NCBI GenBank assembly: GCA_011523425.1
Contig: WTGU01000087.1
Coordinates: 1 to 64,000 of the forward strand
Length of the DNA: 64,000 nucleotides
Source of the DNA: Alphaproteobacteria bacterium
Lineage (GTDB): Bacteria > Pseudomonadota > Alphaproteobacteria > UBA828
Direction of reading: 5' to 3'
The position numbers and the translations under genes are program-made. How positions within the stretch are numbered: position 1 is the stretch's first letter; every line of letters begins with the position of its first letter. This document shows, in pieces, positions 435 through 51,400 of the stretch. The notes under the pieces are model-generated. The model had not been told where the DNA came from. It was given only the letters and a program-made list of their open reading frames with translations, and searched no databases.

Positions 435-1241
435 TCAGTTATTCGCCGCGGCGCCTGAGCGCGGGCCGCGGCAGGCCTTGCGCAGCGCGGCGATGCCCTC
501 CGCGAGGCCCCGCTGCACCAGCCAACTGTCCCCAGAATAGCATAGGAAGTCGAAGCCCATGTCATGCAGCGCCACCCCGGTTTCGGTGTCGTCGCAGATG
601 CGGCCGAGCGACTTTCCGTGCCGCTTGCAGGCGGCGCTCGCCCGCTCCATCGCCGCCTGGAATCGCGGGTGGTCGAAGCGGGCCGGGATCCCCATGGCGA
701 CCGAGAGGTCGAAATGGCCGATCCAGATGCCGTCCACGCCGTCGAGCGCGGCGATGGCCTCGATCTCCTCGATGCCCTCGGGCGTCTCGATCTTGGGGAA
801 GAACACCACGTCGCGGTTGGCGGCGCGGAGCTTCGGCGCCGGCGGGCCGGGGACGTAGCGGTCGTGGGCGATGCCGACGGCGACGCCGCGCGCCCCTTTC
901 GGCGCATAGCGGACGTGATCGAGAATGGCGCGCGCCTCCTCGGCGCTGCCGACCTTGGCCGGCTGGATGCCGTCCGCCCCCATGTCCAGCGCGCGCGCCA
1001 CCATGTCGTAGTCGCCGCCGACGGTGGAGACGATCACCGGCAGGTCGGCCGCCTGGTAGAAGCGCAGCATGCGCTTGAGCTGGTCGTAGCCGAAGCCGGA
1101 GTGCTCCATGTCGAGCAGCGCGTACTGGCAGCCGGCGGCCTTGAGCGTCTGACCCATGCCGGGGCTGTCGAACTCGATCACGAAGGAGCCGAACTTGGGC
1201 TTCTTCGTGCCCATCATCGCGCGCAGAGCGGTGCTCGGCAT
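435..1241 (-). CDS. HpcH/HpaI aldolase family protein, paralogue 1, with the catalytic Arg replaced
   Basis: This 268-residue protein belongs to the HpcH/HpaI (class II pyruvate aldolase, KDR aldolase-like) TIM-barrel family, which cleaves or forms 4-hydroxy-2-oxoacids with a divalent metal. The family landmarks are His47 in LLDMEH, Glu152 in KIETPEG and Asp178 in WIGHFDLS. They align with the general-base His and the metal ligands Glu and Asp of E. coli HpaI. At the position of the pyruvate-binding Arg (Arg70 of HpaI) this copy has Ser72 (PVIVSTVGG), whereas the neighbouring paralogue keeps Arg72. The reaction may therefore differ from simple retro-aldol cleavage. The ATG at 1241 follows AGGGG and lies 9 bp after the stop of the upstream paralogue, so the two are co-transcribed. 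Confidence 0.85.
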   Translation of the reverse strand: MPSTALRAMMGTKKPKFGSFVIEFDSPGMGQTLKAAGCQYALLDMEHSGFGYDQLKRMLRFYQAADLPVIVSTVGGDYDMVARALDMGADGIQPAKVGSAEEARAILDHVRYAPKGARGVAVGIAHDRYVPGPPAPKLRAANRDVVFFPKIETPEGIEEIEAIAALDGVDGIWIGHFDLSVAMGIPARFDHPRFQAAMERASAACKRHGKSLGRICDDTETGVALHDMGFDFLCYSGDSWLVQRGLAEGIAALRKACRGPRSGAAANN

Positions 1242-1250
1242 CGCTTGCCC

Positions 1251-2042
1251 CTAACGCCGCCGGCGGCCGGCGAGCGCAGCCTTCAGGTCGCCGATGCCGC
1301 GGCTAAGCGTCTCCCGCAGGAGCCAGACGTCGGCGGAGTAGCAGATCATGTCGAAGCCCTGGTGATAGGCGGCGATGCCGCCCTCGACATCGAGGACGAG
1401 ACAGCCGAAGGATTTCTTGTGCCTCGCGCAGGCGCGCGCGACCCGGTCCACCGCCGCAAGGAAGTCCGGATGATCGAAGCGGCCGGGAATGCCGAGGGAG
1501 GTGCTGAGGTCGAAGTGGCCGATCCAGAGGCCGTCGATCCCGTCCGTGGCGGCGATCTCCTCCACATTCTCGAGGCCCTGGCGGGTCTCGATCAGGAGGA
1601 ACACCGCGACATGGCGATTGGCGGCGCGCATCTTGGTGACCGGCGCGCCCGGCGCGTAGCGGTCGTGGGCGATGCCGAGGGCGACGCCGCGATTGCCCAG
1701 CGGCGGATACTTGGCGTGCGCCGCGATTCGCCGGGCTTCCTCCGCCGTGCCCGCCATCGGCGTCATGATCCCTTCGGCCCCCATGTCGAGCGCACGGGCG
1801 ATGTGGTGGTAGTGACGCGAGGGCACACGCACGAACGCCGGCAGCTCGGCCGCCTCCATGTAGCGCAGGAGCTGCTTCACCGTGTCGAAGCCGAAGCCGG
1901 AGTGCTCCATGTCGAGGAACACGAACTGGGCGCCGGCGGCCTTGAGGATGTGGCCGATGCCGGGGGAGGCGAGCTCGATCAGGACCGTGCCGAACTTGGC
2001 CCGCCGCGTCGCCGCCATCTCCTTCAGCGTGGTCAGCGCCAC
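1251..2042 (-). CDS. HpcH/HpaI aldolase family protein, paralogue 2
   Basis: This 263-residue protein is a full-length HpcH/HpaI aldolase, a metal-dependent class II enzyme acting on 2-oxo-3-deoxy or 4-hydroxy-2-oxo acids. The GTG start at 2042 is preceded by GGGAGG six bases upstream. The open frame continues far upstream, but that extension is Arg/Glu/Asp-rich antisense sequence and not part of the family. His47 (FLDMEH), Arg72 (FVRVPS), Glu152 (IETRQG) and Asp178 (WIGHFDLS) are all in the expected places, so this copy looks catalytically complete. It and the downstream paralogue share residue numbering exactly and probably arose by tandem duplication. The substrate cannot be read from sequence. 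Confidence 0.88.
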   Translation of the reverse strand: MALTTLKEMAATRRAKFGTVLIELASPGIGHILKAAGAQFVFLDMEHSGFGFDTVKQLLRYMEAAELPAFVRVPSRHYHHIARALDMGAEGIMTPMAGTAEEARRIAAHAKYPPLGNRGVALGIAHDRYAPGAPVTKMRAANRHVAVFLLIETRQGLENVEEIAATDGIDGLWIGHFDLSTSLGIPGRFDHPDFLAAVDRVARACARHKKSFGCLVLDVEGGIAAYHQGFDMICYSADVWLLRETLSRGIGDLKAALAGRRRR

Positions 2043-2288
2043 CCGAGACCTCCCGCTTGCCCCGCGCAAAGGGTCTGCCGACGATCGATTTCGCCAGTCC
2101 GCGCCGCATGTTAGCAGCAATGCGGCAGGCCGCCCAATCGGGCATGCGGAGGGGCGCCGCGCTCTCGCTCGCTGCAGGGAGGGGGGCAGGCGCGGCCAGG
2201 GACGCGGAAGGAGTTCTTGAAGCGCGTCATCGGCTGATGCACGATTCCGCGATACCGATTCGATGCCGCCAGTGACAGGGAAGCGGCC

Positions 2289-3179: not shown

Positions 3180-3872
3180 CTAGCCGGAGGCTCCCAGCGC
3201 CGCGAGGGCCTCCTCCGCGCTCATCACGTCGCCGAACTGCTGGATGACGGTCTCCAGCGCGTCGCGGTGCTCCTCGTCGGTAAGCGCTGCGCAGCAGTCG
3301 GCGATCATCACGGTCTTGAAGTCGAGCATCATGGCGTCGCGCGCCGTCGATTCGCAGCAGACGTCGGTCTTGGTGCCGCCGATGAGCAGCGTGTCTATGC
3401 CGCGCTCGCGCAACTTCCCCTCGAGCGGCGAGGAGCCGGCGATCAGCGCGCTGTAGCGGTTCTTGAAGAGGAGGGTGTCCTCGTCCGCGACCTCCAGCTC
3501 GGGCCAGAGTTTTTGGCCGTCGGCACCCGGCGCAAGACCCGCAATGGTGCGGGCGCGCGCCTCGTCGGAGACGAAATGGTCGAAGAAGCCGGGCCAGTCG
3601 GAGGCGCCGTCGTCGCGGCGCGCGTTGGCGTGGGCGACCCAGAAGACGGCCACGCCGAGCGCCCTGAGCCGCGCGTTGAGAGCGTTGATCCGGGGCACGA
3701 CGGCGCGTGCCATCGGCACCTCTACCGGCGCGCCTGGCGCGAGAAAGGTCACCTGCATGTCGATGTAGACCGCCGCGCTGCGCGCGGGATCGAGCCGCTC
3801 GAAGAGGCGCATCCGCCCGCGCCGCTTCACGACCCGCTCGACGATCTCCGGACGGATGGCGATATCGTGCAC
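3180..3872 (-). CDS. Isochorismatase-family cysteine hydrolase (N-carbamoylsarcosine-amidase-like)
   Basis: This 230-residue amidohydrolase belongs to the isochorismatase-like fold that includes N-carbamoylsarcosine amidase, nicotinamidase and biuret hydrolase. The catalytic triad is visible as Asp38 in VYIDMQ, Lys in LFKNRYSAL and Cys in TDVCCESTARDAM. The GTG start at 3872 was chosen because AGAGGAC precedes it and because the N-terminus VHDIAIRPEIVERVVKRRG matches the leader seen in this subfamily. An ATG 20 codons in would remove that segment. It is the last gene of hyuA-hyuB-gamma, 11 bp after the gamma gene. In N-methylhydantoin breakdown the HyuAB product N-carbamoylsarcosine is hydrolysed by an enzyme of this family, so that role fits but is inferred. 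Confidence 0.87.
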   Translation of the reverse strand: MHDIAIRPEIVERVVKRRGRMRLFERLDPARSAAVYIDMQVTFLAPGAPVEVPMARAVVPRINALNARLRALGVAVFWVAHANARRDDGASDWPGFFDHFVSDEARARTIAGLAPGADGQKLWPELEVADEDTLLFKNRYSALIAGSSPLEGKLRERGIDTLLIGGTKTDVCCESTARDAMMLDFKTVMIADCCAALTDEEHRDALETVIQQFGDVMSAEEALAALGASG

Positions 3873-3883
3873 GGGATGGTCCT

Positions 3884-4159
3884 CTACACCCGCACGATGT
3901 CGGTGAGGAAGGGATCGCCCGCGAGCGCCGATTCGGTATCCAGCAGGGCGCTGCAGCCGGGGCAGTAGAAGCGCCGCAGCAGGACCCGCTCGGCGTTGCT
4001 GTAGGGCGCGCCGCCGGCGCCCTGCATGGGCTGCTCGTCGAGCCGGGCGTGTTCCTTCCAGGGCGCGCCGGCAGGGCCCAGCGCATGGCCGCACGCCAGG
4101 CATGCGATGGCGCGATCCTCGTTCACCGCGAGGGTGGCCGATATGCGGGTCGCGCTCAT
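3884..4159 (-). CDS. Acetone carboxylase gamma-subunit-like zinc-ribbon protein
   Basis: This 91-residue protein has two Cys pairs, Cys20-x2-Cys23 (CLACGH) and Cys66-x2-Cys69 (CPGCSALLDTE), spaced as a metal-binding ribbon. The layout, with WKEHA after the first pair and a C-terminal LLDTE, matches the small gamma subunit of acetone and acetophenone carboxylases (Acetone_carb_G family). Its ATG overlaps the hyuB stop in an ATGA junction, which implies translational coupling and fixed stoichiometry with HyuB. Its presence argues that the HyuA/HyuB pair forms a three-subunit complex like the ATP-dependent ketone carboxylases, although related small subunits also occur in some hydantoinase operons. 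No catalytic role can be assigned to it alone. Confidence 0.75.
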   Translation of the reverse strand: MSATRISATLAVNEDRAIACLACGHALGPAGAPWKEHARLDEQPMQGAGGAPYSNAERVLLRRFYCPGCSALLDTESALAGDPFLTDIVRV

Positions 4160-5985
4160 TCGGCTGCCACAGGCGTCGCGAGCCGGGCTTGGCGGAGCGC
4201 CTCGCGGCGGGCCCGGGTGGCGTCCTCGTCCACCCCGCCGGCCGTCGTCACCACGCCGTAGACCCTGGCCGCCACTTCCGCCGAGACCGCGCCGGCCTGG
4301 ACGTCGGCCTGCACCCGCGCAGGCTCCCGCTCCAGAGGGTCGCCGAAGCCGCCGCCGCCGTCGGAGCGGACGTAGAGCGCGTCGTCTCCCTTGAGCGGGA
4401 AGACGCCCCAGGAGATCGTCTCCGCCTCGCCGGTCATCTCGTCGAGGGAGGTGGGGAAGGGGTTGACGTTGCGCCCGTCCTCCCTGGCGCGGTTGTTGTG
4501 CACCCAGCGGTAGGCGCAGGGCGCGCCGGCATAGCCGCCGCCCAGCCCCTCGCTCATCGAGAACTCGGTGCCCTTGCCCGAGACCACGTAGTTGATGCCG
4601 CCCTCCGGCGAATCGTGCTGCACCAGGGCGAACTCGATCCCGTTGCCGCCGCGCCAGCGTCCGGGCCCGCCGGTATCCGGGCGCGCGCGGCGGAAGAGGT
4701 AGCGCACCGGGAAGGTCGCCTCGGTGGTCTCGACATTGGCCATGCGGCCGATGGGGTTGGGGATCTCGCCGCCGACGTCGATGCCGTCGGCCCAGGTGCG
4801 GGCCCCGCCCGCGCCGCCGAAGGTCTCGGTCAGGATGCCGATGGCCTCCTGGCGGCGCTGGTTGAGGCCGAACATGAAGATGGCGAAGTGGCTGCCGTGC
4901 CAGACGGCCGTGGCCTCCTTCGCGTAGGCCTCGCTCGCGGACAGCATCTTGGCGATGCAGGTGCAGGCGGCGTTGTTGACCGACTGGATCGCGCCCACGG
5001 TGGCGAGCGAGACCGGCGCAGGGCGCGTGCAGTTCACCACCGAGCCTTCCGGCGCGATCATACTGATCGGCCTCAGCACGCCGTCGTTCCAAGTGATGTC
5101 GTAGCAGAGCAGCGGGAAGAGGGGGGCGAAGAAGCCGCCCCACGAGGCCCAGTAGGTGCAGTTGATGCCGTAGTGCGACTGCGGGCTCGAGCCGGTGAAG
5201 TCGAAGGTGAGTTCGTCCCCCTCCTTGGTCATGGCGAGCAGCACCCGGCAGGTCTCGCCCTCGATGTCGAAATACTGCCGCGCCTCCCAGCGGCCGTCCG
5301 GCAATTCCTGCAGGCGCTTGCGGAAGAGCGTCTCCGACTGGTCGACCAGCGCCGCGCAGGCCTCGTCCACGGGCTCCGCGCCGTACTTCTCGATCAGCGC
5401 CACCATCCGCTCCCGCGCGACGTTGTTGGCCGCGATCATCGAGGAGAGGTCGAGCGCCACCATCTCCGGCGCGCGCACCATGTTGAGCAGCGTGTCCATC
5501 ACGTCGCGGCGCATGGTGTCGCCTTCCACCAGCTTGATGCCGGGCGATGAGAAGCCCTCGGTGAAGATGTCGCGCGAATCCGGGCTGAAGCCGCCGGGCA
5601 CCATGGCGCCGATGTCGTAGACGTGGACGAAGCAGGCGCTCCACGCGACCAGCCGGCCGTCGTGGTGGATCGGCGCCACCAGGTAGATGTCGGAGGTGTG
5701 CAGCGCGGCGGTGTAGGGGCAGTTGGTGAGGAACACGTCGCCCTCGCCGATGTCGCCCTCGAAGCGGCGGATGACCGCCTTGCAGGCCTCCGCCGCGCTG
5801 GTGAGATGGTGTAGGAAGCCCACGCCGCCCATGAGCAGGGAGCCGTCGGCGCGGTAGAGCGAGACCATGAGATCGTGGCCCTCGTTGGTGATCGCGCTGC
5901 CGGAGACGTGCTTCAGCGTGATCACGGCCTCGTCGATGACGCGGAACAGCCGGTGGCGGATGATCGAGAAGGTGATCGGGTCCAT
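4156..5985 (-). CDS. hyuB: Hydantoinase B/oxoprolinase family subunit
   Basis: This 609-residue cytoplasmic protein is a full-length HyuB, the partner of HyuA in ATP-dependent N-methylhydantoinase, 5-oxoprolinase and acetone/acetophenone carboxylase complexes. It starts MDPITFSIIRHRL and has the family blocks NEGHDLMVS, FLTNCPYTAALH, GGFSPDSRDIFTEG, DFTGSS and GGPGRWRGGNGIE. In this superfamily HyuB completes the ring opening or carboxylation of the intermediate that HyuA phosphorylates. It begins 8 bp after hyuA and overlaps the gamma gene by 4 bp, so the three are one translational unit. The exact substrate (hydantoin, pyrrolidone-type lactam or ketone) is not evident from the sequence. Confidence 0.9.
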   Translation of the reverse strand: MDPITFSIIRHRLFRVIDEAVITLKHVSGSAITNEGHDLMVSLYRADGSLLMGGVGFLHHLTSAAEACKAVIRRFEGDIGEGDVFLTNCPYTAALHTSDIYLVAPIHHDGRLVAWSACFVHVYDIGAMVPGGFSPDSRDIFTEGFSSPGIKLVEGDTMRRDVMDTLLNMVRAPEMVALDLSSMIAANNVARERMVALIEKYGAEPVDEACAALVDQSETLFRKRLQELPDGRWEARQYFDIEGETCRVLLAMTKEGDELTFDFTGSSPQSHYGINCTYWASWGGFFAPLFPLLCYDITWNDGVLRPISMIAPEGSVVNCTRPAPVSLATVGAIQSVNNAACTCIAKMLSASEAYAKEATAVWHGSHFAIFMFGLNQRRQEAIGILTETFGGAGGARTWADGIDVGGEIPNPIGRMANVETTEATFPVRYLFRRARPDTGGPGRWRGGNGIEFALVQHDSPEGGINYVVSGKGTEFSMSEGLGGGYAGAPCAYRWVHNNRAREDGRNVNPFPTSLDEMTGEAETISWGVFPLKGDDALYVRSDGGGGFGDPLEREPARVQADVQAGAVSAEVAARVYGVVTTAGGVDEDATRARREALRQARLATPVAAE

Positions 5986-5993
5986 GGCGGGCC

Positions 5994-8114
5994 TCAGCCG
6001 AGCTCGATGACGATGTTACGGTAGGCGTCCATACGGCCGGCCTGGCCGGCCTGTAGGACGATGGTGGTGATCGGCGTGTGGATCACTGCAGGCCCGGTGA
6101 CGACGTTGCCCGGCGCGAGCCGCTCGAAGTCGTAGATGTCCGCCGGCGCAAGCGCGCCCGCGGCCTCGACGAAGATGTCGCGCCGGCCGATCAGCGCGGG
6201 CGCCGGATCGCCGTCGCCGGGCGGGGAGCGCTCGATGGGAGGGCGCTCCACCAGGCCGCGCGCGGACAGCCGGAACATGGTCATCTCCATGCCGGCGGCG
6301 CGATAGGCGGAGCCCTTGCCGAACTTGCGCTCGTAGAGCGCCTCGAAATCGGCCGCGAGCCAGGCGACGGCGGCATCGTCCATCGGCCCGCCGTCCGCCA
6401 CCGGTGTCGTCACCTCGTGCACCTGGCGGCCGTAGCGCAGGTCGACCGACCAGTCCAGCGCAATCGCGTCGCCGGTGAATCCCTCGGCGGCGAGCTGGGC
6501 GCGGGCGCGCTCCACCATCGGCGCGTAGATCGCGTTGATCTCCTCGGCAGGGCTGTCCGCCGGCAGCGTCCTGGTGACGCTGTATTCGTGGACGATGTCG
6601 GCGGCCAGCAGGCCGAAGGCGGCGTTTACCGCGGCGGTGTGGGGCACCACGATGCGCTTTACGCCGAGCTCCGCGCCGAACACGCCGCAGAGCAGCCCGC
6701 AGCTTCCGCCGAAGGCGTGCAGCACGAAATCGCGCGGGTCGAGGCCGCGCTCCACCGTGATCTCGTGGATGAGGTCGGTGATCTGCGCCGCGGCGATGCG
6801 GTAGATGCCGATGGCCGCCTCTTCCACGCTCATGGCGAGCGGCCTGGCCACCTTCTCCTCGAATGCGTGCCGGGCGGCTTGCGCATCGAGCGTGATGGTG
6901 CCGCCGAGGAAGGTGCCGGGGTCCATGTAGCCGACCAGCAGCATGACGTCGGTCAGCGTCGGCTCGGTCCCGCCGAGCCCGTAGCAGACCGGGCCGGGCC
7001 GGGCGCCGGCGCTTGCGGGGCCGACGCCGGGCACGCCCGTGACGGGGTCCAGCGCCACGATGCTGCCGCCGCCGGCGCCGATGGAGACCACCTCGATCTT
7101 CGGCGCCACGTAGTGGTAGCGGTCGACCATCGGCTCGCGCGCGTACTCGATCGCCCCGCCCTGGATGACGCCGACCTTGAAGGTGGTGCCGCCCATGTCG
7201 CAGGCGATGATGTCGTCGTCCTCCATGAGCTGGCCGAGATGGCGGCTGCCGATGACGCCGGCGGCGGGGCCGCATTCGAGCATGCCGACGGCGCGTCCGG
7301 CCGCCTCCTCGGCCGGCAGCAGACCGCCATAGCCCTGCATCACCAGCAGCGGCCCGTCATAGCCGCGCGCCTTGAGCAGCCCCTGCAGGGTGGTCACGTA
7401 GTCGCGGGCGATGCGCCCGGCATAGGCGTTGATGACCGTCGTCGACGCGCGCTCGTACTCGCCCGGCACCGGCGCGATCTCGCTCGAGAGCGTGACGTAG
7501 ACGGATGGCGCGATCTCGCGGATCAGGTCGCCGACCCGGCGCTCGTGGGCGTCGTTGTAGAAGGACCAGAGGAAGGAGACGGCCAGCGCGTCCACGCCCG
7601 CATCCTCGACCAGCGCGCAGATCGCCGCGCGCACCGCGTCCTCGTCCAGCGGGCGCAGGACGGCGCCCTTGTAGTCCACCCGCTCCGGCACGCCCCTGGT
7701 GCGGGTTCCCGGCACCAGCGCGGGCGCCCGGTCGGTCGCCACGGGGTGCTTGATTCCGTCCTCGGTGAGGCCGGCCCAGCGGCCGTAGGCGCCGCGGGTG
7801 ATGGTCAGCGTGTCCTCGAAGCCCTCCGTGGTGATGAGCCCGGTGCTGGCGCCGGTGCGGGTGAGCAGCGTGTTGTCGACCACCGTAGATCCGTGCACGA
7901 AGAGCCCCGTCTCGGCCAGCAAGGCATCCGTGGCGATGCCCATGCCTTCCGCCGCGGCGGCGACGGCGGCGAGCACGCCGTCCGCGAAGTCGGGCGGGGT
8001 GGAGAGCGCCTTGCCCAGGCGCACCGGCTCGCCGGCGGCGAAGAGCACCGCATCGGTGCAGGTGCCGCCGACGTCGGTCGCGACCACGTAGCGGGCGCCG
8101 TTCCTCTCGCTCAT
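5994..8114 (-). CDS. hyuA: Hydantoinase/oxoprolinase family ATPase subunit
   Basis: This 706-residue protein is a HyuA-type subunit with the actin-like ATPase fold. The first phosphate motif is DVGGTCTD (residues 14-21) and the second is CDMGGTTFKVG. VHGSTVVDNTLLTRTGA and QGYGGLL are further family blocks. HyuA uses ATP to activate the carbonyl oxygen of a cyclic imide, lactam or enol before HyuB acts. The ATG at 8114 follows AAGGG and is the first Met that gives the conserved N-terminus. The longer open frame upstream is low-complexity and was excluded. The gene heads the four-gene operon and diverges from a cytochrome c' gene across 173 bp, which must hold both promoters. Confidence 0.92.
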   Translation of the reverse strand: MSERNGARYVVATDVGGTCTDAVLFAAGEPVRLGKALSTPPDFADGVLAAVAAAAEGMGIATDALLAETGLFVHGSTVVDNTLLTRTGASTGLITTEGFEDTLTITRGAYGRWAGLTEDGIKHPVATDRAPALVPGTRTRGVPERVDYKGAVLRPLDEDAVRAAICALVEDAGVDALAVSFLWSFYNDAHERRVGDLIREIAPSVYVTLSSEIAPVPGEYERASTTVINAYAGRIARDYVTTLQGLLKARGYDGPLLVMQGYGGLLPAEEAAGRAVGMLECGPAAGVIGSRHLGQLMEDDDIIACDMGGTTFKVGVIQGGAIEYAREPMVDRYHYVAPKIEVVSIGAGGGSIVALDPVTGVPGVGPASAGARPGPVCYGLGGTEPTLTDVMLLVGYMDPGTFLGGTITLDAQAARHAFEEKVARPLAMSVEEAAIGIYRIAAAQITDLIHEITVERGLDPRDFVLHAFGGSCGLLCGVFGAELGVKRIVVPHTAAVNAAFGLLAADIVHEYSVTRTLPADSPAEEINAIYAPMVERARAQLAAEGFTGDAIALDWSVDLRYGRQVHEVTTPVADGGPMDDAAVAWLAADFEALYERKFGKGSAYRAAGMEMTMFRLSARGLVERPPIERSPPGDGDPAPALIGRRDIFVEAAGALAPADIYDFERLAPGNVVTGPAVIHTPITTIVLQAGQAGRMDAYRNIVIELG

Positions 8115-9038: not shown

Positions 9039-9965
9039 TCAGAAGCTGACCTGATCGCCGCCCTTGAGGCCCAGCATCTCGCGCGCCTCCGCCGGCGTCG
9101 CGACCTCGAGGGAGAGCTCCTCGACGATGCGCCTGGCCTTGGCGACCTGGGCGGCGTTGGAGGGCGCGAGCTCGCCCTTGCCGATGAAGAGGCTGTCTTC
9201 CAGGCCGACGCGGATATTGCCCCCCATCATCGCGCCCATGGTGACGAAGCTCATCTGGTGGCGGCCGGCGGCCAGGATCGACCAGCGGTAGTCGTCGCCG
9301 AAGAGCTTGTTGGCGATGCGGCGCATGTGCATCAGGTTCTCGTGGTCGGCGCCGATGCCGCCCAGGATGCCGAAGATGGTCTGCACGAAGAGCGGCGGCT
9401 TCACCAAGCCCCGGTCGACGAAATGGGCCAGGTTGTAAAGGTGGCCGACGTCGTAGCACTCGAACTCGAAGCGCACGCCGTGGCCTTCACCCAAATCCTT
9501 CATGATGTATTCGATATCTTTGAATGTGTTGCGGAAAATAAAGTCCTTCGTGCCCTCCAGATGGGCCCTCTCCCAGTCGTACTTGAACTCCTTGTAGCGG
9601 TTCAGCATCGGGTAGATGCCGAAGTTCATGGAGCCCATGTTGAGCGAGGTCATCTCCGGGCTCGCGCGGCGCGGCGCGGCGAGGCGCTCGTCCAGCGTCA
9701 TGCCGAGCCCGCCGCCGGTGGTGATGTTGATGACCGCGTCGGACTGCTGCTTGATGCGCGGCAGGAAGGCCATGAAGACGTCCGGGTCCGGCGTCGGCCG
9801 CCCGTCCTCGGGGTCGCGCGCGTGCAGGTGGAGGATGGAGGCGCCGGCCTCAGCCGCGGCCACGCCGTCGGCCGCGATCTCGTCCGGAGTCAGCGGCAGG
9901 TGCGGCGACATGGTGGGGGTGTGGATCGATCCCGTGACCGCGCAGGTGATGATGACTTTGCTCAT
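9039..9965 (-). CDS. Beta-keto acid cleavage enzyme (BKACE, DUF849; 3-keto-5-aminohexanoate cleavage-like)
   Basis: This 308-residue zinc enzyme belongs to the BKACE family, which condenses a beta-keto acid with acetyl-CoA to give acetoacetate and a new CoA ester. The zinc ligands His46 and His48 are in ILHLHARDP. NITTGGG (from residue 80), LNMGSMNFG, FECYDVGHL and GGNIRVGLEDSL are further family blocks. The N-terminus IITCAVTGSIHTPTMSPHLP is typical. The subgroup-specific substrate residues cannot be read without structure-based alignment, so the keto acid is unknown. It is the last gene of the pxpBC/tartrate-dehydratase/MFS cluster, about 100 bp after the MFS gene. It may convert the pathway's beta-keto product, which is inference. 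Confidence 0.9.
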   Translation of the reverse strand: MSKVIITCAVTGSIHTPTMSPHLPLTPDEIAADGVAAAEAGASILHLHARDPEDGRPTPDPDVFMAFLPRIKQQSDAVINITTGGGLGMTLDERLAAPRRASPEMTSLNMGSMNFGIYPMLNRYKEFKYDWERAHLEGTKDFIFRNTFKDIEYIMKDLGEGHGVRFEFECYDVGHLYNLAHFVDRGLVKPPLFVQTIFGILGGIGADHENLMHMRRIANKLFGDDYRWSILAAGRHQMSFVTMGAMMGGNIRVGLEDSLFIGKGELAPSNAAQVAKARRIVEELSLEVATPAEAREMLGLKGGDQVSF

Positions 9966-11321: not shown

Positions 11322-12485
11322 TCAGAGTAGGGTCTCCAGCAGTGCGGCGAGCGCGGCCTTGTGCTCGAAGCCCGCGCCGGGCGCATCGCCGAGGCTGACC
11401 CGGCCATCCTCCACCGGGGTGTCGTCGGCGAAGCCGCCGAAGGGCTGGAAGACGCCCGGATAGGATTCGCAGCCGCCGAGCGCAAGGCCGCCGGCGGCGG
11501 CGAGCGCCAGCAGGTTACCGCCGTGGGGGAGGAAGCGGCGGGGCGACCAGCCTTCCGCCGCCATCATGGCGACGATGTCGATGGTCTCGCCCACGCCGTA
11601 GGCGAGCGCCGGGTCGAACTGCACGAAGTCGACGTCCGGCCGCATGCCGCCGAAGCGGAGCAGGTTGCGCGCGTCCTGCAGCGAGAGCAGGTTCTCGCCG
11701 GTCGCGATCGCGCCGGGATAGGCTGCCGCCACCGCCGCGTTGAGGGAGAAGTCGAGGGGATCGCCGGGCTCCTCGTACCAGGCGAGGCGGTAGGGAACGA
11801 GCGCGTCGGCGTAGCGGAGCGCGGTCTCGGCGTCGAAGCGGCCGTTCGCGTCCACCGCGAGCCGGGCGCCGTCGCCGCCCAGCAGCGCCAGCACCGCCTC
11901 GATCCTGGCGCGGTCTTCGTCGAGGGTGGCGCCGCCGATCTTCATCTTCACCTGGGTGTAGCCCTGATCGAGATAGCGTCGCATCTCGGCGACGAGGCCT
12001 TCCGTGCCCTTGTCGGGGTCGTAGTAGCCGCCGGCGGCGTAGACGGGGACGCTCCGCTCCGGTGCGCCCGTGCCGGCCGCGTCCGCGATCGTCGCCCAGA
12101 GCGGCATGTCGGCGATCTTGGCGGCCGCATCCCAGACCGCGATGTCGAGCGCCGCCACGGCGACCGCGCGCTCACCGTGGCCGCCGGGCTTCTCGTTCCG
12201 CATCATCAGGCTGCGGATGGCGCGCGCGTCGAGGGTGGTACCGTCCGTGCTCGCGTGCTCCTCCGGCGCCTCCAGCACGCGCGGCGCGAGGCGCTCGCGG
12301 ATCAGCGCGCTCTGGGCGTAGCGGCCGTTGGCGTTGAAGCCGAAGCCCACCACGGGCCTGCCGCCGCGCACCACGTCCGTGATCACGGCGACCGCGCTCA
12401 CGGTCATCCTGCTGAAGTCGATCACGGCGTTCCGCATCGGCGCGCCCATGGGCACGACGGCATCGCGGATCTCGACGATCCTCAT
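11322..12485 (-). CDS. D-tartrate dehydratase-like enolase-superfamily enzyme
   Basis: This 387-residue protein has the enolase/mandelate-racemase two-domain fold and closely resembles, from memory, Bradyrhizobium D(-)-tartrate dehydratase. Shared blocks include GFGFNANGRYAQ, NEKPGGHGER, AAGGYY, VKMKIGG and FLPHGGN. Candidate active-site residues are Lys180/Lys182, the metal ligands Asp212, Glu238/Glu239 and Glu264, and His321. These fall within a residue or two of the known positions. The reaction would be dehydration of a 2,3-dihydroxy acid to an oxaloacetate-type keto acid. The ATG at 12485 overlaps the stop of the upstream pxpC-like gene in ATGA, so it is translationally coupled to it. 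A longer open frame upstream lies inside pxpC and was ignored. Confidence 0.85.
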   Translation of the reverse strand: MRIVEIRDAVVPMGAPMRNAVIDFSRMTVSAVAVITDVVRGGRPVVGFGFNANGRYAQSALIRERLAPRVLEAPEEHASTDGTTLDARAIRSLMMRNEKPGGHGERAVAVAALDIAVWDAAAKIADMPLWATIADAAGTGAPERSVPVYAAGGYYDPDKGTEGLVAEMRRYLDQGYTQVKMKIGGATLDEDRARIEAVLALLGGDGARLAVDANGRFDAETALRYADALVPYRLAWYEEPGDPLDFSLNAAVAAAYPGAIATGENLLSLQDARNLLRFGGMRPDVDFVQFDPALAYGVGETIDIVAMMAAEGWSPRRFLPHGGNLLALAAAGGLALGGCESYPGVFQPFGGFADDTPVEDGRVSLGDAPGAGFEHKAALAALLETLL

Positions 12486-13483
12486 GCCCGGCCGCCGTCC
12501 TGCTCCCCGGGTGCCAGGGAGTCCTCGGTGCACAGCGTGGCGATGCGGCGGCGCTCGGCCTGCGCGGCCGCCACCGTGACCTCGCGGAAGCGGTAGATCT
12601 CGTTGGGTCGCGACTGGCCGAGCTTCCACCAGGCGCAGGTCGGCACCGTGTAGGGGTTGATGAAGCCGCCGAGGGTGAGGGTGTCCACCATCAGGATGAT
12701 GGGGGTCTGGCCGCAGAGGTTGATGGCGCCGATGGGGTAGCCGTGGTCGATCACGTTGGAGGGGTGCTCGCCGTTCTCCGGTGCCTTGTCGGTCGCCTTC
12801 GCGGTGAAGGTCCAGTCCGGCCCGTCAAGGCGGAAGCCGACGCGATTGCTCTTGGACGAAAGCCGCCAGTCGCTCGTCAGGAAGCGCCGCTTGCCGGCCT
12901 CGTCGATCCAGTCGTCGTTGGGACCGGCGACGACCTCGATCTCCCAGACGCCGCCGGCGGGGGAGGGCGGGCGCACGCCGTCCCTCAGCCTGCGGCTGGG
13001 CGCCGTCGCGCCGACGTCTCGCAGGGGGATGGACTGGCCTTCCTTCAGTGCGGCCCCCTCGAGGCCGCCGCAGGCGCCGATGACGAAGGTCGCCCGCGAT
13101 TCGAGAAAGGGGGCCACCTCGATGCCGCCGGCGAAGGCGATGTAGGTGCGGGCACCGGTGACGGCGGAGCCCAGCGCCAGCGTCTGCCCGGCATGCACGG
13201 CGATGCTCTCCCAGAGCGGCACGGGCGCGCCGTCGAGGGTGGCCTTCATGTCGGCGCCGGTGAGCGCGATCACCGCGTCCCGGTCCGCGCGCAGCACCGG
13301 CCCGATGAAGGCGCATTCCAGCGCCGCCGCGCCCGGCGGATTGCCGACCAGGACGTTGGCGAGGCGGAATGACCAGTGGTCGATGGGCCCGGACGGCGGG
13401 AAGCCCATGCCGAAGGCGCCCTTGCGGCCCGGATAATCCTGCACCGTGGTCTCGAGACCGCCCTTGATGACCGTGAATCCCAT
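12482..13483 (-). CDS. Biotin-dependent carboxyltransferase / 5-oxoprolinase subunit C family protein, copy 1
   Basis: This 333-residue protein belongs to the PxpC/KipA/allophanate-hydrolase-subunit-2 family. It begins with the standard GLETTVQDYPGRKG motif and has GFPPSGPIDHWSFRLANVLVGN, LTGADM, VVAGPNDDW and EHPSNVIDHGYPIGAINLCGQTPIIL. PxpC works with PxpB and PxpA to open 5-oxoproline using ATP, and relatives bind carboxylated biotin or act on urea. A second pxpC-like gene with the same blocks lies upstream, so the BC cassette is duplicated. It starts 3 bp after the pxpB-like gene and overlaps the dehydratase gene by 4 bp. Without a PxpA gene nearby, 5-oxoproline itself is an uncertain substrate. 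Confidence 0.87.
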   Translation of the reverse strand: MGFTVIKGGLETTVQDYPGRKGAFGMGFPPSGPIDHWSFRLANVLVGNPPGAAALECAFIGPVLRADRDAVIALTGADMKATLDGAPVPLWESIAVHAGQTLALGSAVTGARTYIAFAGGIEVAPFLESRATFVIGACGGLEGAALKEGQSIPLRDVGATAPSRRLRDGVRPPSPAGGVWEIEVVAGPNDDWIDEAGKRRFLTSDWRLSSKSNRVGFRLDGPDWTFTAKATDKAPENGEHPSNVIDHGYPIGAINLCGQTPIILMVDTLTLGGFINPYTVPTCAWWKLGQSRPNEIYRFREVTVAAAQAERRRIATLCTEDSLAPGEQDGGRA

Positions 13484-13486
13484 GGT

Positions 13487-14356
13487 TCAGAACCGCTCGC
13501 TCGCATCGAGGGAGGCGGCCCATGCCTTGTAGGCGCGGACGGAGAAACGCTGATAGCCGGTCACGTTGAAGGTATAGGTGCCGTCGGCCACGCGGCTCTC
13601 GATGTAGTCGAACTCTTCGCGCTCGACGGGCACGAACTTGACCCTGTCGGCGGCATCCAGCAGCACCACCCGGTCACGGTAGGCCGGCAGCCTCGCCTGC
13701 GTGTCCCAGAGCGGCACCGGCGTGCGCCCGATCAGGTTGTAGCCGCCCGGCCCCGGCGTCGTGTAGATCGAGGTGGAGAGTCCGCCGACGCCGATGGCGC
13801 CGAGCGTCGTCCAGGTGCGCGGCGGGTTGTACTTGGGCGAGGTGATGGCGCAGCGCGGATCGAGCGCCACCATCAGCGGCAGCCCCGGCGTGGAGCACAC
13901 CGCGACCACCCAGTGCTCGGTCCCCGAATGTACACGCGCGAGCTGAGCCGCGTCCTCCAGCCCGTTGATTCGGGCCACGAATTCCGGGTCTCCCTCGCGC
14001 GGCGCGATGCGCTCGGCGTAGTCCTCCACGCAGGCCTTCGTCCACGGGTCGCGGTACATGACGGGGAGGTAGGCGAGGCGGCTCTCCAGCTCCAGGTCCT
14101 CGACCGGGCCGAGCCCCTCGATGAGGCGGCGGAGCTCCCGCTCCAGGTCGTCCGCGCCGATCAGGTCCGGGTCGTACTCCACCACCACCGAGTTGTAGGA
14201 GGGGTTGGTGTCGATCACGCCCTTGGTGCGGTCCTCCCGCAGTGCCGCCGTCAGCCCCAGCGCCATGAAGTTGAGGTCGATGCGCGCATCGTCGCCGAAT
14301 TGCACCAGCACGAAGGTGTCGCCGCCGGGCAGGAAGCGCGGCTCGTCGAAGATCAC
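13487..14356 (-). CDS. 5-oxoprolinase subunit B / KipI family protein, copy 1
   Basis: This 289-residue protein is of the PxpB/KipI/allophanate-hydrolase-subunit-1 family. The GTG start at 14356 was chosen because VIFDEPRFLPGGD aligns with MIYDEPRFRPGGD of the other copy. It also overlaps the upstream pxpC stop as GTGA, with GGAGGA just before. Family blocks seen are LARVHSGTEHWVVAV, DPRCAITSPKYNPPRTW, GGLSTSIYTTPGPGGYNLIGRTPVPLWD and FVPVEREEFDYI. It is a cyclophilin-like-fold partner of PxpC and probably binds it directly. Its length equals that of copy 2 (289 residues), which supports cassette duplication. Confidence 0.87.
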   Translation of the reverse strand: MIFDEPRFLPGGDTFVLVQFGDDARIDLNFMALGLTAALREDRTKGVIDTNPSYNSVVVEYDPDLIGADDLERELRRLIEGLGPVEDLELESRLAYLPVMYRDPWTKACVEDYAERIAPREGDPEFVARINGLEDAAQLARVHSGTEHWVVAVCSTPGLPLMVALDPRCAITSPKYNPPRTWTTLGAIGVGGLSTSIYTTPGPGGYNLIGRTPVPLWDTQARLPAYRDRVVLLDAADRVKFVPVEREEFDYIESRVADGTYTFNVTGYQRFSVRAYKAWAASLDASERF

Positions 14357-15336
14357 CCGGCGTCCTCCAGGCTTGCTTCGGCGCAGAGCGCGTCGATCCG
14401 CTGCCGCTCGGCCTGCGCGTCGGCGACCGAGACGAGATCGAAGCGGTAGACGTCGTTGGGCTTCGACTGGGCGAGCTTCCAGAATGCGGCGGACGGCACC
14501 GTGAAGGGGTTGATGAAGCCGCCGGCCGACGGCCCGTCGTTGACCAGGATGATCGGCGTCTGGCCGCAGAGGTTCACCGCGCCCACCGGATAGCCGTGGT
14601 CGAGGATGTTGGAGGGATGTTCGCCGTGCTCCGGTCCCTTGTCGGTGGCGCGGGCGGCGAAGGTCCACTCAGGGCCGGAGAGGCGGTAGCCGGTACGGTT
14701 GCTGCGGGCCTGCAGCGTCCACGCGCTCTCCAGGAACATGTGCTGGCCGGCCTCGTCGATCCAGTCGTCGTTGGGGCCGGCGACGACCTCGATCCGCCAC
14801 TCCTTGCCCGCAGGGATCGGCGGCCGGCAGTCGGCCCTGACCCGCCGGCCCGGCCTGCCGGCCCCGGCCCTGTCGCCCAGCGGCAGGCGCTGGCCGTCCT
14901 TGAGCGCGTGGCCCTCCATGCCGCCGACTCCGGCCATATGAAAGGTCGAGCGCGAGCCCAGCACCGGGGCCGTGTCGATGCCGCCGGCGACGGCGAGGTA
15001 GGTGCGGGCGCCGGTGCTTGCGAAGCCGGTCTCCAGCACCGCTCCGGCGGGCACGGCGACGCTCTCCCACTGGGGCATGGGCACGCCGTCGAGGGTCGGC
15101 GCCATCGTGGCACCGGTCAGCGCGATCAGCGTCTCGCTCTCGAAGCGGAGCGTCGGCCCGAGGAACTGGATCTCCAGCCCCGCAGCGTCGTCCGCGTTGC
15201 CCACCAGCAGGTTGGCGAGGCGGAAGGACCACATGTCGAAGGGGCCGGACGGTGGGAAGCCCTGCTCCCAGAAGCCGTAGCGGCCGGGAAAATCCTGCAC
15301 GCCGGTCTCGAGCCCGGCCTTGACCACTTCGATCAC
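14353..15336 (-). CDS. Biotin-dependent carboxyltransferase / 5-oxoprolinase subunit C family protein, copy 2
   Basis: This 327-residue PxpC-type protein begins VIEVVKAGLETGVQDFPGRYG from a GTG at 15336, with GGAGG upstream. The upstream in-frame extension lies in a repeat element and is not coding. It shares GFPPSGPFDMWSFRLANLLVGN, VVAGPNDDWIDEAG, ATDKGPEHGEHPSN and NLCGQTPIIL with the downstream copy but differs in many loop residues. The duplication is therefore old enough to have diverged, and the two cassettes may act on different substrates. Its stop overlaps the start of the copy 1 pxpB-like gene. Together with the pxpB-like gene at 15493-16362 it forms the first of the two BC pairs. 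Confidence 0.87.
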   Translation of the reverse strand: MIEVVKAGLETGVQDFPGRYGFWEQGFPPSGPFDMWSFRLANLLVGNADDAAGLEIQFLGPTLRFESETLIALTGATMAPTLDGVPMPQWESVAVPAGAVLETGFASTGARTYLAVAGGIDTAPVLGSRSTFHMAGVGGMEGHALKDGQRLPLGDRAGAGRPGRRVRADCRPPIPAGKEWRIEVVAGPNDDWIDEAGQHMFLESAWTLQARSNRTGYRLSGPEWTFAARATDKGPEHGEHPSNILDHGYPVGAVNLCGQTPIILVNDGPSAGGFINPFTVPSAAFWKLAQSKPNDVYRFDLVSVADAQAERQRIDALCAEASLEDAG

Positions 15337-15360
15337 GGCCGTAGCCCTCCACCCCGTTCC

Positions 15361-15448
15361 GTCATGGCCGGGCTTGTCCCGGCCATCCACGAGAACACCC
15401 CGGCCTCGCCCGGCGGGAAGAGATGCCCGGAACCAGTCCGGGCATGAC
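15361..15448. repeat. Paired-hairpin intergenic repeat element, alphaproteobacterial type
   Basis: Two perfect 9-bp hairpins lie between copy 2 pxpC and copy 2 pxpB. ATGGCCGGG and CCCGGCCAT (15364-15386) surround CTTGT, and ATGCCCGGA and TCCGGGCAT (15423-15445) surround ACCAG. The unit is bounded by GTCATG (15361) and CATGAC (15448). Elements of this look are scattered by the hundred in many alphaproteobacterial genomes. Here it separates the two genes of one BC cassette and may affect mRNA stability. Confidence 0.75.
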
Positions 15449-15492
15449 GGCGAGGGGTAGGCCGAGCTGGCACGAATTCGCAGGCCACGACG

Positions 15493-16362
15493 CTAGAACC
15501 TGACGCTCATGTCGAGGGTCGCGAGCCACTCGTGGTAGGCGCGGATCGAGAACTTCGCGTAGGCCGCGACCTGGTGCTCGTAGGCGCCGCTCTCCACCTG
15601 CGCCGTCACGTGGTCGTACTCCTCCCGGCCCACGGGCACGAAGCGCACGCGGTCGCCCGGCCGGAGCAGGGCGAGGCGATCGCGGAAGGCGCGCAGCCGC
15701 TGCTCCAGGTCGAACACCGGCACCGGCGAGTGGCCGATGATCTGGTAGCCGCCGGGAGTGCGGGCCGGATAGAGGCAGGTGACGGAGCCGCCGTAGCCGA
15801 GCGTTCCCTTCGGCGTCCAGGTGCGCGGCGGGTTGTACTTCGGCGCCGTGAGGCGGCAGCGCGGATCCAGCGCGATCAGCGACGCGAGGCCGGGGTAGAA
15901 GCCCAGTGCCGCGACCCAGTACTCCGTGCCGGAATGGATGCGCGCGAGCTGCGCGCGGCTCTCCAGCGCATTGAGCCGCACCATGAGGTCGGGGTCGTAC
16001 TCCTTCTCGCCGATACGGGCGCAGTAGTCCTCCCAGCAGGCGCGGGTGAGGTGGTCGAAGTAGAGCACGGGGAAGGTGTAGAGCGGGCTCGGCAGTTCCA
16101 CGTCCTCGAGCGAGCCGAGGGAGCCATGGAGCGCTCCGATCTCGCGCAGGACGTCGTCGTAGCCGATCCGCTCGGGCGCGTAGCTGATGACGATGGAGGC
16201 CATGTTCGGCAGCAGCTCGACGATGCCGTCGAGCCGGGCCTCGCGCACCCGCGCGGTCAGCGCATGCACCAGGAAGTTGAGATCGAAATTGAGCTCGTCG
16301 CCGAGCTCCATCTCGATGAAGCGGTCGCCGCCCGGCCTGAAACGCGGCTCGTCGTAGATCAT
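15493..16362 (-). CDS. 5-oxoprolinase subunit B / KipI family protein, copy 2
   Basis: This 289-residue PxpB/KipI-type protein starts MIYDEPRFRPGGDRF at 16362. An ATG ten codons upstream adds only Arg-rich residues absent from the paralogue. It shares LARIHSGTEYWVAALGFYPG, DPRCRLTAPKYNPPRTW, GGSVTCLYPARTPGGYQIIGHSPVPVFD and FVPVGREEYDHV with copy 1. It is the promoter-proximal gene of the cluster that runs down to the BKACE gene. The 240 bp up to the divergent E1 gene therefore probably hold the promoters of both. Its partner pxpC-like gene follows after a 156-bp gap that carries the repeat element. Confidence 0.87.
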   Translation of the reverse strand: MIYDEPRFRPGGDRFIEMELGDELNFDLNFLVHALTARVREARLDGIVELLPNMASIVISYAPERIGYDDVLREIGALHGSLGSLEDVELPSPLYTFPVLYFDHLTRACWEDYCARIGEKEYDPDLMVRLNALESRAQLARIHSGTEYWVAALGFYPGLASLIALDPRCRLTAPKYNPPRTWTPKGTLGYGGSVTCLYPARTPGGYQIIGHSPVPVFDLEQRLRAFRDRLALLRPGDRVRFVPVGREEYDHVTAQVESGAYEHQVAAYAKFSIRAYHEWLATLDMSVRF

Positions 16363-16602
16363 CGCGTGCCGTCGGCCTCTCCGCCGCGTCATCCCGTCCG
16401 GCGAAGCCGCCGGTGCGTGCGCGCGGTTCTAGCCCGGATGTCCGACCGCTGTCACGGCCCGCGTCGTGCGAAACGCATGCGGAGGGCGTCCGACCTAGCT
16501 GCCCCTGCCGAGGCGCGCCGGCCCTGCCATCTCTGCTATAAGAGCCGGGCGCTTCCGGCGCCGCCGAGCGGACGTGCGCCGGAGCGGGCAGGGGAGGGCG
16601 CC

Positions 16603-48437: not shown

Positions 48438-51400
48438 ATGTGTTTGTCCATTCCGCCGCTGGCGACACGCGTCCTGCTCCCGGTCTGCCTCATCCTGTGC
48501 CTCGCAGGCCTGTTCGCCGCCACCGCCCGGGCGCAGACGGTCGATACGCTCGTCTCGAACACGGGCCAGAGCGCTCTCTCCGGCGCCACCCCGTCGATCC
48601 AGGCCCAGAGCTTCACCACCGGCCCGCACGGCACCGGATACACGCTCTCCTCCATCAGCCTCCTGCCGTTTCGCGACTTCGCGGGCGACTCGGGCACGTT
48701 CGTCGCCATCAAGGAAGACAGCGCCGGCCGGCCGGGCACCCTGGTGGCCGCGCTCGCGACTCCCGACGACGCTTACGTGCCGGGGGACTTCTTCTCCTAC
48801 ACGGCTCCGGCAAACACGGTCCTGCAGGCGAACACCACCTACTGGATCGTCCTGAACGAGGAGCAGGCACAGAGCGACTGGCAAGGGTGGGGAAAGACGG
48901 CTTCGCGTGGGGAGGACAGCACGTCGCTGCCGGGCTGGAGCATCGGAAATGCCCGCCTGCAGCAAAGCGGAACCTCCTGGAACACCGCAGCCGACCCCCT
49001 GCGGATCGACATTCGCGGTTACAAGAACGCCAACCCGACGCTGAGCATCGCCGCAGCGTCCGCGCTCGAGGGCAGCCCCGTGCGGTTCGCCGTCTCCCTC
49101 GACAATGCGACCGATGGCGTGGTGACGGTGCAGTACGACACCGGCGACGTTACCGCGATCGCGGGAACGGACTACACGGCCGCCTCGTCCCAGACGCTCA
49201 CCATCCCAGCCGGAGACACCGTCGCCGAATTCAGCATCGCCACGACCGAAGACAGCGTCGACGAGGCCGACGAAACCTTCACCGTGACGTTGTCCAACCC
49301 CTCGTCCAATGCCGACCTCGGGACCGTCAAGTCCGCCACCGGAACGATTCTCGACGGCGACGGCAAGCCGGCCGTCAGCGTGGCCGGCGCGTCGGCCACC
49401 GAAGGCGCGAACCTGAGCTTCACCGTCAGCCTCAGGTTCGTGACGGACACCGACGTCACGGTGGAATACAGCACGTCGATCGGCACCGGCGACACCGCGT
49501 CCGCGAGCGACTTCACCGCCGAAAGCGGCGAGACGGCGACCATCACCGCCGGGCAGACCGAGACCGCGATCAGCATCGCCACCACCCAGGATTCCGTCGA
49601 CGAATCCGACGAGACGCTCACGCTCACGATCTCGAACCCCTCGTCCAACGCCGAGCTGGGCACGGCGACCTCGGCGACCGGCACCATCGAGGACGACGAC
49701 ACGGCAGGGCTCGTGTTCTCGGCGCCGATCCTCGGCGTCACCGAAGGCGCCAGCAACAGCTACACGGTGGCGCTGGCGACCGAGCCGAGCGCAACCGTGA
49801 GCGTCTCGATCGCCGCCGGCGGGAGTGCCGGGCTGACGCTCGGCACGAGCCAGCTCAGCTTCACGCCGACGAACTGGGGCGAGGCGCAGACCGTAAGCGT
49901 GAGCGCGGACCACGACGACGACGCCTCGCCCGGCAGCGCTACGCTGACGCACACCGCCAGCGGCGGGGACTACGGATCGGTCGCCGCCACGTTGCCGGTC
50001 GCGGTGACGGACGACGACACGCCCGCCATCGTGCTCTCCCAGACCGCCCTGCCGGTGCCCGAGGACGGCAGCGCCACCTATACGGTCGCGCTCGCGACCC
50101 TGCCCACGGAGAAGGTGACGCTGGAGCTTGCCGGCACCGCCGGCACCGATCTCACGGTCGCGCCGAACGCCATCGAATTCGAACCCGGCGACTGGGACAC
50201 GCCCGTGACGGTCACGGTCGAGGCCGCGGCAGACCTGGACGCCGACAACGACCCGGAGACCCTGACCTACACCGCGAGCGGGGGCGACTACGGGGGAGTC
50301 TCCGCGAGCGTCGCCGTGGAGGTCGTCGACACGGTCGCGGCGTCGATCGTGCTCAACAAGACCCGCCTGCACGTCAAGGAAGGCGGAGCGGCCGTCGCCT
50401 ACAGGGTCGCTCTCGGCCTCCAGCCCGCGAGCGACGTGACGGTTCAGGTCACACGGGTCAACGGCGCCCCGCTGTTCATCGGCACCTCCTCCGCATCGGG
50501 TCAAAGCGCGACGCTGACCTTCACGCCGGATAACTGGGATCAGTCGCAGAGGATCGTCGTCGCTGCGTCCAGCAACGTCGTGACAGGGAACCGGGAACAC
50601 GAGCTGCGCCACCGGGCCGCGGGCGGCGGGTACGGCTCGGCGCCGGTCGTCGATCTGCCGGTGCTGATCCAGGACGAGAACGCACAGAATAGCTACGTGT
50701 TCTCGGAGACCGCGCTATCGCTGGCCGAGGACGGGACTACCAGCTACACGCTGAAGCTCGGCAAACGGCCGTCCGCGAACCTCAGCGTGACCATCGCGGG
50801 CGGCGGCAGCAGCCTGACCGTCGAGCCGGGCAGTCTGTCGTTCACGCGGGACAACTGGAACGACGGGCAAACGGTGAGCGTGACGGCGGTGGCGCAGGTC
50901 TCCGCTCAGGATGCCACGAAAACGCTCACGCACACGGGCGACGGCGGCGGGTACGACTCCGGCGCGCTGGCGCCGGGAGAGCTGCCGGTAACCATCGTGC
51001 GCGACGTGCCGAAGATCGCGGACACGGGCGGCGTCACGGTCACCTCCCGGCCCCTGCACACCGGCAACACCTACGCGAGTGGCGAGACCATCGCCCTCTC
51101 GGTGAAGTTCGATCGGGACGTGGTCGTGGATACCGGCAACGGCTCGCCCGATCTCGAGGTGGACATCGGTTCGTCGTCCAGGATCGTCGGCTACGCCGGC
51201 ATGGCCGGAAACAGGACGCTGACGTTCGAATACGTAGTTCAGGCCGGCGACCTCGACAGTGACGGCATCAGCGTCGGGGACGACGCCCTCGTGCTCAACG
51301 GCGCGACCATCCGGGCCGGTGCCGACCAGCGCGACGCCGAGCTCGGCGGGACCGCGCTGTCGACGCAAGGGGGCCACCGGGTGGACGGTAGCCAGACGCT

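Follow-up and report, generated by a model that had tools for sequence, protein, structure and literature searches.

We analyzed a 64,000-nucleotide stretch of DNA (positions 1 to 64,000 of contig WTGU01000087.1, hereafter the window) from an alphaproteobacterium of the lineage UBA828, in which the minus strand carries four adjacent genes: hyuA, hyuB, a gene for a small gamma subunit and a gene for an isochorismatase-like cysteine amidase, here called ISO (Table 1). The four genes are tightly packed. As read from the sequence, 8 bp separate the hyuA stop codon (5994-5996) from the hyuB ATG at 5985, the TGA stop codon of hyuB (4156-4158) overlaps the gamma ATG (4157-4159) in the sequence ATGA, and 11 bp lie between the gamma TAG (3884-3886) and the start of ISO, which we refined to the GTG at 3872 from the longer mechanical open reading frame starting at 4103. 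HyuA carries PF05378, PF01968 and PF19278 (Hydant_A_N, Hydantoinase_A and Hydant_A_C), HyuB carries PF02538 (420 bits) and ISO carries PF00857 (isochorismatase, 134 bits), while gamma matches PF08882 with 33 bits against a cut-off of 21, a weak sequence similarity. Coordinates and Pfam assignments therefore confirm the module and its junctions as the first-pass annotation had described them, and its view that the module bears mixed marks was accurate: a hydantoinase/lactamase-type alpha-beta pair is joined to a carboxylase-type gamma and a cysteine amidase. No NCBIfam equivalog scored above its cut-off for HyuA, HyuB, gamma or ISO, and we found no description of this gene set in the literature searched.

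Table 1 Genes of the module and neighboring genes in the window
Feature	Position	Strand	Basis
hyuA, alpha subunit, ASKHA-type ATP-dependent kinase, 706 aa	5994..8114	-	Pfam, motifs, best PDB matches
hyuB, metal-site subunit, 609 aa	4156..5985	-	PF02538, metal tetrad, gamma-equipped branch
gamma subunit, four-Cys zinc ribbon, 91 aa	3884..4159	-	PF08882, invariant Cys, AF2 fold match
ISO, isochorismatase-like Cys amidase, 230 aa, GTG start	3180..3872	-	PF00857, triad, model
HpcH/HpaI aldolase 1	435..1241	-	PF03328; kept close to the module in the window's own genus alone
HpcH/HpaI aldolase 2 (5' end approximate)	1251..2060	-	PF03328; found close to the module in several genera of the family
Beta-keto acid cleavage enzyme (BKACE)	9039..9965	-	PF05853; NF053538 above cut-off

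The four genes form a conserved operon, and their linkage goes beyond chance. Relatives with the short gamma gene were gathered by a family search, a scan of named genomes and an alignment search of class and phylum; the related records are metagenome-assembled and mostly alphaproteobacterial. HyuA, HyuB and gamma occur together in 25 species (the window and loci L051-L065, L068, L082-L084 and L135-L139; the short contig of L063 stops before hyuA), and the gamma gene is kept in all of them. An orthologous ISO (58-87% identical) follows gamma in 24 of the 25, across alpha- and betaproteobacteria, either immediately 3' of it or past an insert of at most about 0.8 kb, which in lineages other than the window's genus is a helix-turn-helix/cupin regulator. 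The remaining species, a Rhodoferax-type metagenome-assembled genome (L084), has the order HyuA, HyuB, gamma, regulator, a molybdenum (Mo) hydroxylase (FAD, FeS and Mo subunits) and a terminal isochorismatase-family hydrolase that is RutB-like (124 bits to RutB) and non-orthologous to ISO (27% identical). Because this replacement comes from the same hydrolase family, we argue that the amidase step belongs to the pathway. The first-pass description of the amidase as 'built-in' holds at the level of gene linkage. The module is uncommon, with clear module-type gammas in about 10 of the 385 alphaproteobacterial genomes of the class sample and, among the 398 genomes sampled from the phylum, only in that of the window itself.

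In four genomes of the window's genus (L055, L057, L059 and L060), although not in the window, a PIN-domain toxin-like gene, VapC-like by eye, lies between gamma and ISO.

The AlphaFold2 (AF2) model of gamma, with a predicted local distance difference test score (pLDDT) of 86, has significant PDB fold matches only to the gamma chains of acetone carboxylase (Acx) and acetophenone carboxylase (Apc), namely 5l9w_C, 5m45_C, 5svb_C/F and 5svc_C, at E values of 2e-5 to 8e-5; the next match stands at E 0.65. The best structural match is 5l9w_C, from Apc. C20, C23, C66 and C69 are invariant in the alignments, and the four cysteines of Apc gamma have been proposed to bind zinc (PMC5214803). The protein thus combines the four conserved cysteines and the Acx/Apc gamma fold of the PF08882 family, and it genuinely belongs with the gamma subunits of the carboxylases. 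In a published structural survey of the family, gamma was absent from every hydantoinase-type complex and was not required for amide activation (PMC5214803). A side observation concerns the betaproteobacterial genome of L082 (G763), which has eight gamma-like matches.

HyuA contains DVGGTCTD, DMGGTTFK, GPASAGARPGP and ERVDYKG, and retains the phosphate 1, phosphate 2 and adenosine motifs together with the ER-x-D-xx-G segment. In HyuB, alignment to 6yra_B and 5l9w_A identifies a metal tetrad, Asp38-His96-Asp99-His121, that is conserved in the orthologues; the ATP-motif and metal-site residues used for comparison are those of caprolactamase and Apc (PMC8453981). As these motifs and the tetrad are kept, both half-reactions of the family should work, the ATP-dependent activation of a carbonyl as well as the chemistry at the metal site. 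The module thus has the ATP motifs and metal tetrad of a two-subunit hydantoinase, but it lacks the alpha-plus-beta-only composition of one, since its gamma gene overlaps hyuB. The best PDB matches of HyuA are 6yra_A, 5l9w_B and 7hk5. The first, 35% identical over the full length of HyuA, belongs to the caprolactamase CapAB of Pseudomonas jessenii, which shares the ATP motifs, the metal tetrad and the alpha-beta architecture; unlike the module, CapAB has no gamma and no known linked amidase. The two also differ within the phosphate-2 motif (DMGGTTFK): at position +7 every module HyuA read has a lysine, in contrast to Asp302 of CapA and like Lys281 of Apc alpha-prime, a proposed bicarbonate kinase. 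We considered this lysine as a carboxylase marker and dropped it because gamma-less DxGGTTAK paralogs of the window genome carry it too.

Phylogeny sets the module apart from the characterized enzymes. In the HyuA tree it forms its own clade (100/100), with the AcxA/ApcC pair on one side and the hydrolases on the other. The HyuB tree took in most other full-length copies of the window genome, both high- and low-scoring, and a single branch (100/99) parts all gamma-linked HyuBs (Acx, Apc, the module, two further types of the window genome and three from other genomes) from all 29 gamma-less ones, which come from the window genome only, plus CapB and N-methylhydantoinase. Acx and Apc form their own clade (100/97) with the module outside, the placement of long rows such as Apc being less certain. 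Consequently, a position of HyuAB among true acetone carboxylases, which the first-pass annotation had named as fatal to its proposal, does not occur. The published criteria of gene order, tree position, length and motifs (PMC5214803) give a mixed answer, in which the order is that of Acx, the lengths are nearer the hydantoinases and the tree position is neither. Taken together, these comparisons place the module in a separate gamma-equipped lineage, apart from the Acx/Apc clade, the two-subunit lactamases and the hydantoinases.

ISO has the triad of the isochorismatase-like cysteine amidases, with Asp38, Lys137 and the nucleophile Cys172 invariant in the alignment. Among the fold neighbors of its model (pLDDT 83), RutB is nearest, followed by 3irv, BiuH, N-carbamoylsarcosine amidohydrolase (CSHase, 1nba) and maleamate amidase; its best neighbors by sequence and fold are 3hu5, 3irv and RutB. 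It stays below the NCBIfam equivalog cut-offs for RutB (65 of 378 bits) and BiuH (62 of 370 bits), and it scores 47 bits against the CSHase chain 1nba, no CSHase model having been seen in NCBIfam. Gln212, at Cys+40, occupies the position of BiuH Gln215 and TrtA Gln202, which bind the distal ureide from the neighboring subunit (PMC5806882, PMC7948467), while Tyr140 replaces BiuH Lys145, as in RutB, with which ISO shares KxRY. These residues favor a terminal amide or ureide substrate without naming one. Isochorismatase activity was rejected, as EntB has Gly at the position of Cys172. As for a nicotinamidase identity, the His metal ligands described for PncA were not seen in the aligned segment, a judgement made on sequence only.

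The genes around the module vary between lineages. A three-subunit Mo hydroxylase adjoins it in L068, L083, L084, L136 and L137, with 4-hydroxybenzoyl-CoA reductase, CO dehydrogenase and hydroxypseudooxynicotine dehydrogenase as its nearest solved structures; we rejected it as a universal partner, as these five species all lie outside the window's family. Also outside that family, a TRZ/ATZ-family deaminase is linked in L065, L079 and L139, and L068 has a linked ABC transporter of the BMP type. A gene set homologous to this transporter occurs in L064, which belongs to the window's own family. RidA-family genes are linked in L136 and L137 and, inside the window's family, in L051, L054 and L058. 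These four kinds of neighbor suggest N-heterocycle catabolism. A 2-oxoglutarate oxygenase in L136, L137 and L084 was considered as a thymine-hydroxylase clue; it is closer to ethylene-forming-enzyme-like proteins and is not decisive. In the window's genus, the neighbors are the two HpaI-type aldolases, BKACE (550 bits against the NF053538 equivalog cut-off of 430), an enolase-superfamily enzyme and urea-carboxylase-like PxpB/PxpC pairs, a set that does not contradict N-heterocycles but leaves room for a beta-keto acid. Two such consecutive PxpC/PxpB-like pairs lie on the minus strand of the window at 12482-16392, nearer to urea carboxylase parts than to 5-oxoprolinase.

Our model, which we favor tentatively and rate at just short of an even chance, is that HyuABgamma uses ATP to open the ring of a lactam, imide or ureide, after which ISO releases nitrogen. 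An alpha-beta-gamma enzyme and a dedicated cysteine amidase would then serve one catabolic route for an oxidized N-heterocycle (a lactam, cyclic imide or cyclic ureide). HyuA, with its ASKHA fold, would phosphorylate the ring carbonyl using ATP, and the activated ring would pass to the metal site of HyuB for hydrolytic opening, possibly with bicarbonate as in caprolactamase, while the zinc ribbon of gamma would act as a structural clamp on HyuB. The opened product would end in an amide or ureido group, and ISO, through its triad, would free ammonia or carbamate from it; in several relatives the RidA deaminase would process the resulting enamine or imine. RutB/RutC, BiuH and TrtA offer a parallel, as there too an isochorismatase-like cysteine amidase acts after ring opening, and a RidA-family protein also occurs in several relatives of the module. 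The difference lies in the opening step, which is catalyzed by the flavin oxygenase RutA or by cyanuric acid hydrolase in those systems and is proposed to be ATP-dependent here. The constancy of ISO as a partner counts for ring opening, and so do the heterocycle-type neighbors, the retained ATP motifs and HyuB metal tetrad, and the Cys172 and Gln212 of ISO. A substrate beyond the characterized set, as the first-pass annotation supposed, is likely.

Several observations weigh against this model. Gamma is characterized only from ketone carboxylases, and the HyuB of the module stands with Acx and Apc on the gamma-equipped side of the tree. Gln212 is no firm ureide marker, because it is Asn in L068 and has no counterpart in RutB. 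In the window's family the heterocycle-type neighbors are mostly missing, with aldolases, BKACE, enolase-superfamily and urea-carboxylase-like genes in their place, and the Mo hydroxylases of the window genome are at most 40% identical to the module-linked ones. Since neighbor genes vary between lineages, the substrates may differ as well.

The next reading is that HyuABgamma works as a carboxylase that needs ATP and bicarbonate and acts on a ketone or another enolizable compound, with acetone-carboxylase-like chemistry; the beta-keto acid would go to the nearby BKACE or CoA enzymes in the window's genus, and ISO would take an amide group off the same substrate before or after carboxylation. 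We regard this as rather unlikely, and it is mainly the gamma-equipped tree position that keeps us from rating it lower. The gene order, with gamma directly downstream of hyuB, is that of acxABC (PMC5214803), the gamma subunits are homologous and share a fold, and the high-scoring BKACE is a near neighbor of hyuA in the genus and sits immediately upstream of that gene in L054. Nevertheless, the subunits are far shorter than those of Acx, in which beta has about 720-776 aa and gamma about 168 aa: HyuB has 609 aa against 776, and the gamma of the module 91 aa against 168. Compared with Xanthobacter AcxABC (5m45/5svb), the module HyuA is 31% identical to its Acx counterpart, and the amidase gene is an addition. 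Aromatoleum ApcABCDE (5l9w) is similar in its gamma fold, its four-Cys site and ApcC (34% identical to HyuA), yet the order apcABCD(E) includes a second kinase, alpha-prime, and an epsilon gene, both absent from the module, whose cluster in the window has a single HyuA. The position outside the Acx/Apc clade also argues against carboxylation, as does the absence of BKACE from the neighborhood in all but a few genomes, and the constant partner is a cysteine amidase, which has no role in ketone carboxylation.

The first-pass annotation had equated HyuAB and the amidase with a route from N-methylhydantoin through N-carbamoylsarcosine to sarcosine, in which HyuAB would be the N-methylhydantoin amidohydrolase and ISO the CSHase. 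The enzyme classes are in principle the right ones, CSHase is among the fold neighbors of ISO, and Gln212 sits at the ureide-binding position. However, the solved N-methylhydantoinase (7hk5) pairs (100/100) with another paralog of the window genome that is 64% identical to it, against 37% for the module HyuA; it is gamma-less, and ISO is nearer 3hu5, 3irv and RutB than CSHase. This creatinine/N-methylhydantoin route was rejected on phylogeny, and we consider it very improbable. It is also quite unlikely, in our judgement, that ISO is a general amidase or nicotinamidase sharing the transcript by chance, with a substrate unrelated to HyuABgamma. The window genome does have 16 isochorismatase-family matches, and several genomes have a toxin-like or regulator gene between gamma and ISO; even so, the linkage persists in 24 of 25 species over two classes, even across such inserts, and the 25th has an isochorismatase-family replacement.

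In contrast to the survey mentioned above (PMC5214803), gamma is here a fixed companion of an alpha-beta pair that falls outside the carboxylase clade, an amidase is nearly always next to them, and one change on the HyuB tree suffices for the distribution of gamma. Uncharacterized copies of the family number dozens per genome (about 36 here), and function assignment becomes testable because the gamma marker divides the family and the linked amidase limits the possible substrates. If ring opening holds true, the module would add an ATP-dependent route to N-heterocycle degradation.

The window genome (3.6 Mb) shows an extreme expansion of the hydantoinase/oxoprolinase family, with 40 HyuB and 34 HyuA matches. 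The large subunit of Mo hydroxylases has 24 matches in it, including some fragments. Given these numbers and the isochorismatase-family matches, the host probably degrades many nitrogen compounds. Two side observations concern G000:C103:33403-35562 (L067, L159) and C110:62482-64611 (L158): a second gamma-linked HyuB without an adjoining HyuA is kept in many relatives, and the HyuA closest to that of the module stands alone on another contig, with no HyuB or gamma nearby. At G000:C148:93531-98163, an isochorismatase-family gene lies some 1 kb from another HyuA-HyuB pair, for which there is no gamma match. Finally, the plus strand of the window encodes at 48438-61592 a giant surface/adhesin-type protein, an open reading frame of 4384 aa in which SWM, fn3 and cadherin-like domains accompany nine Calx-beta stretches.

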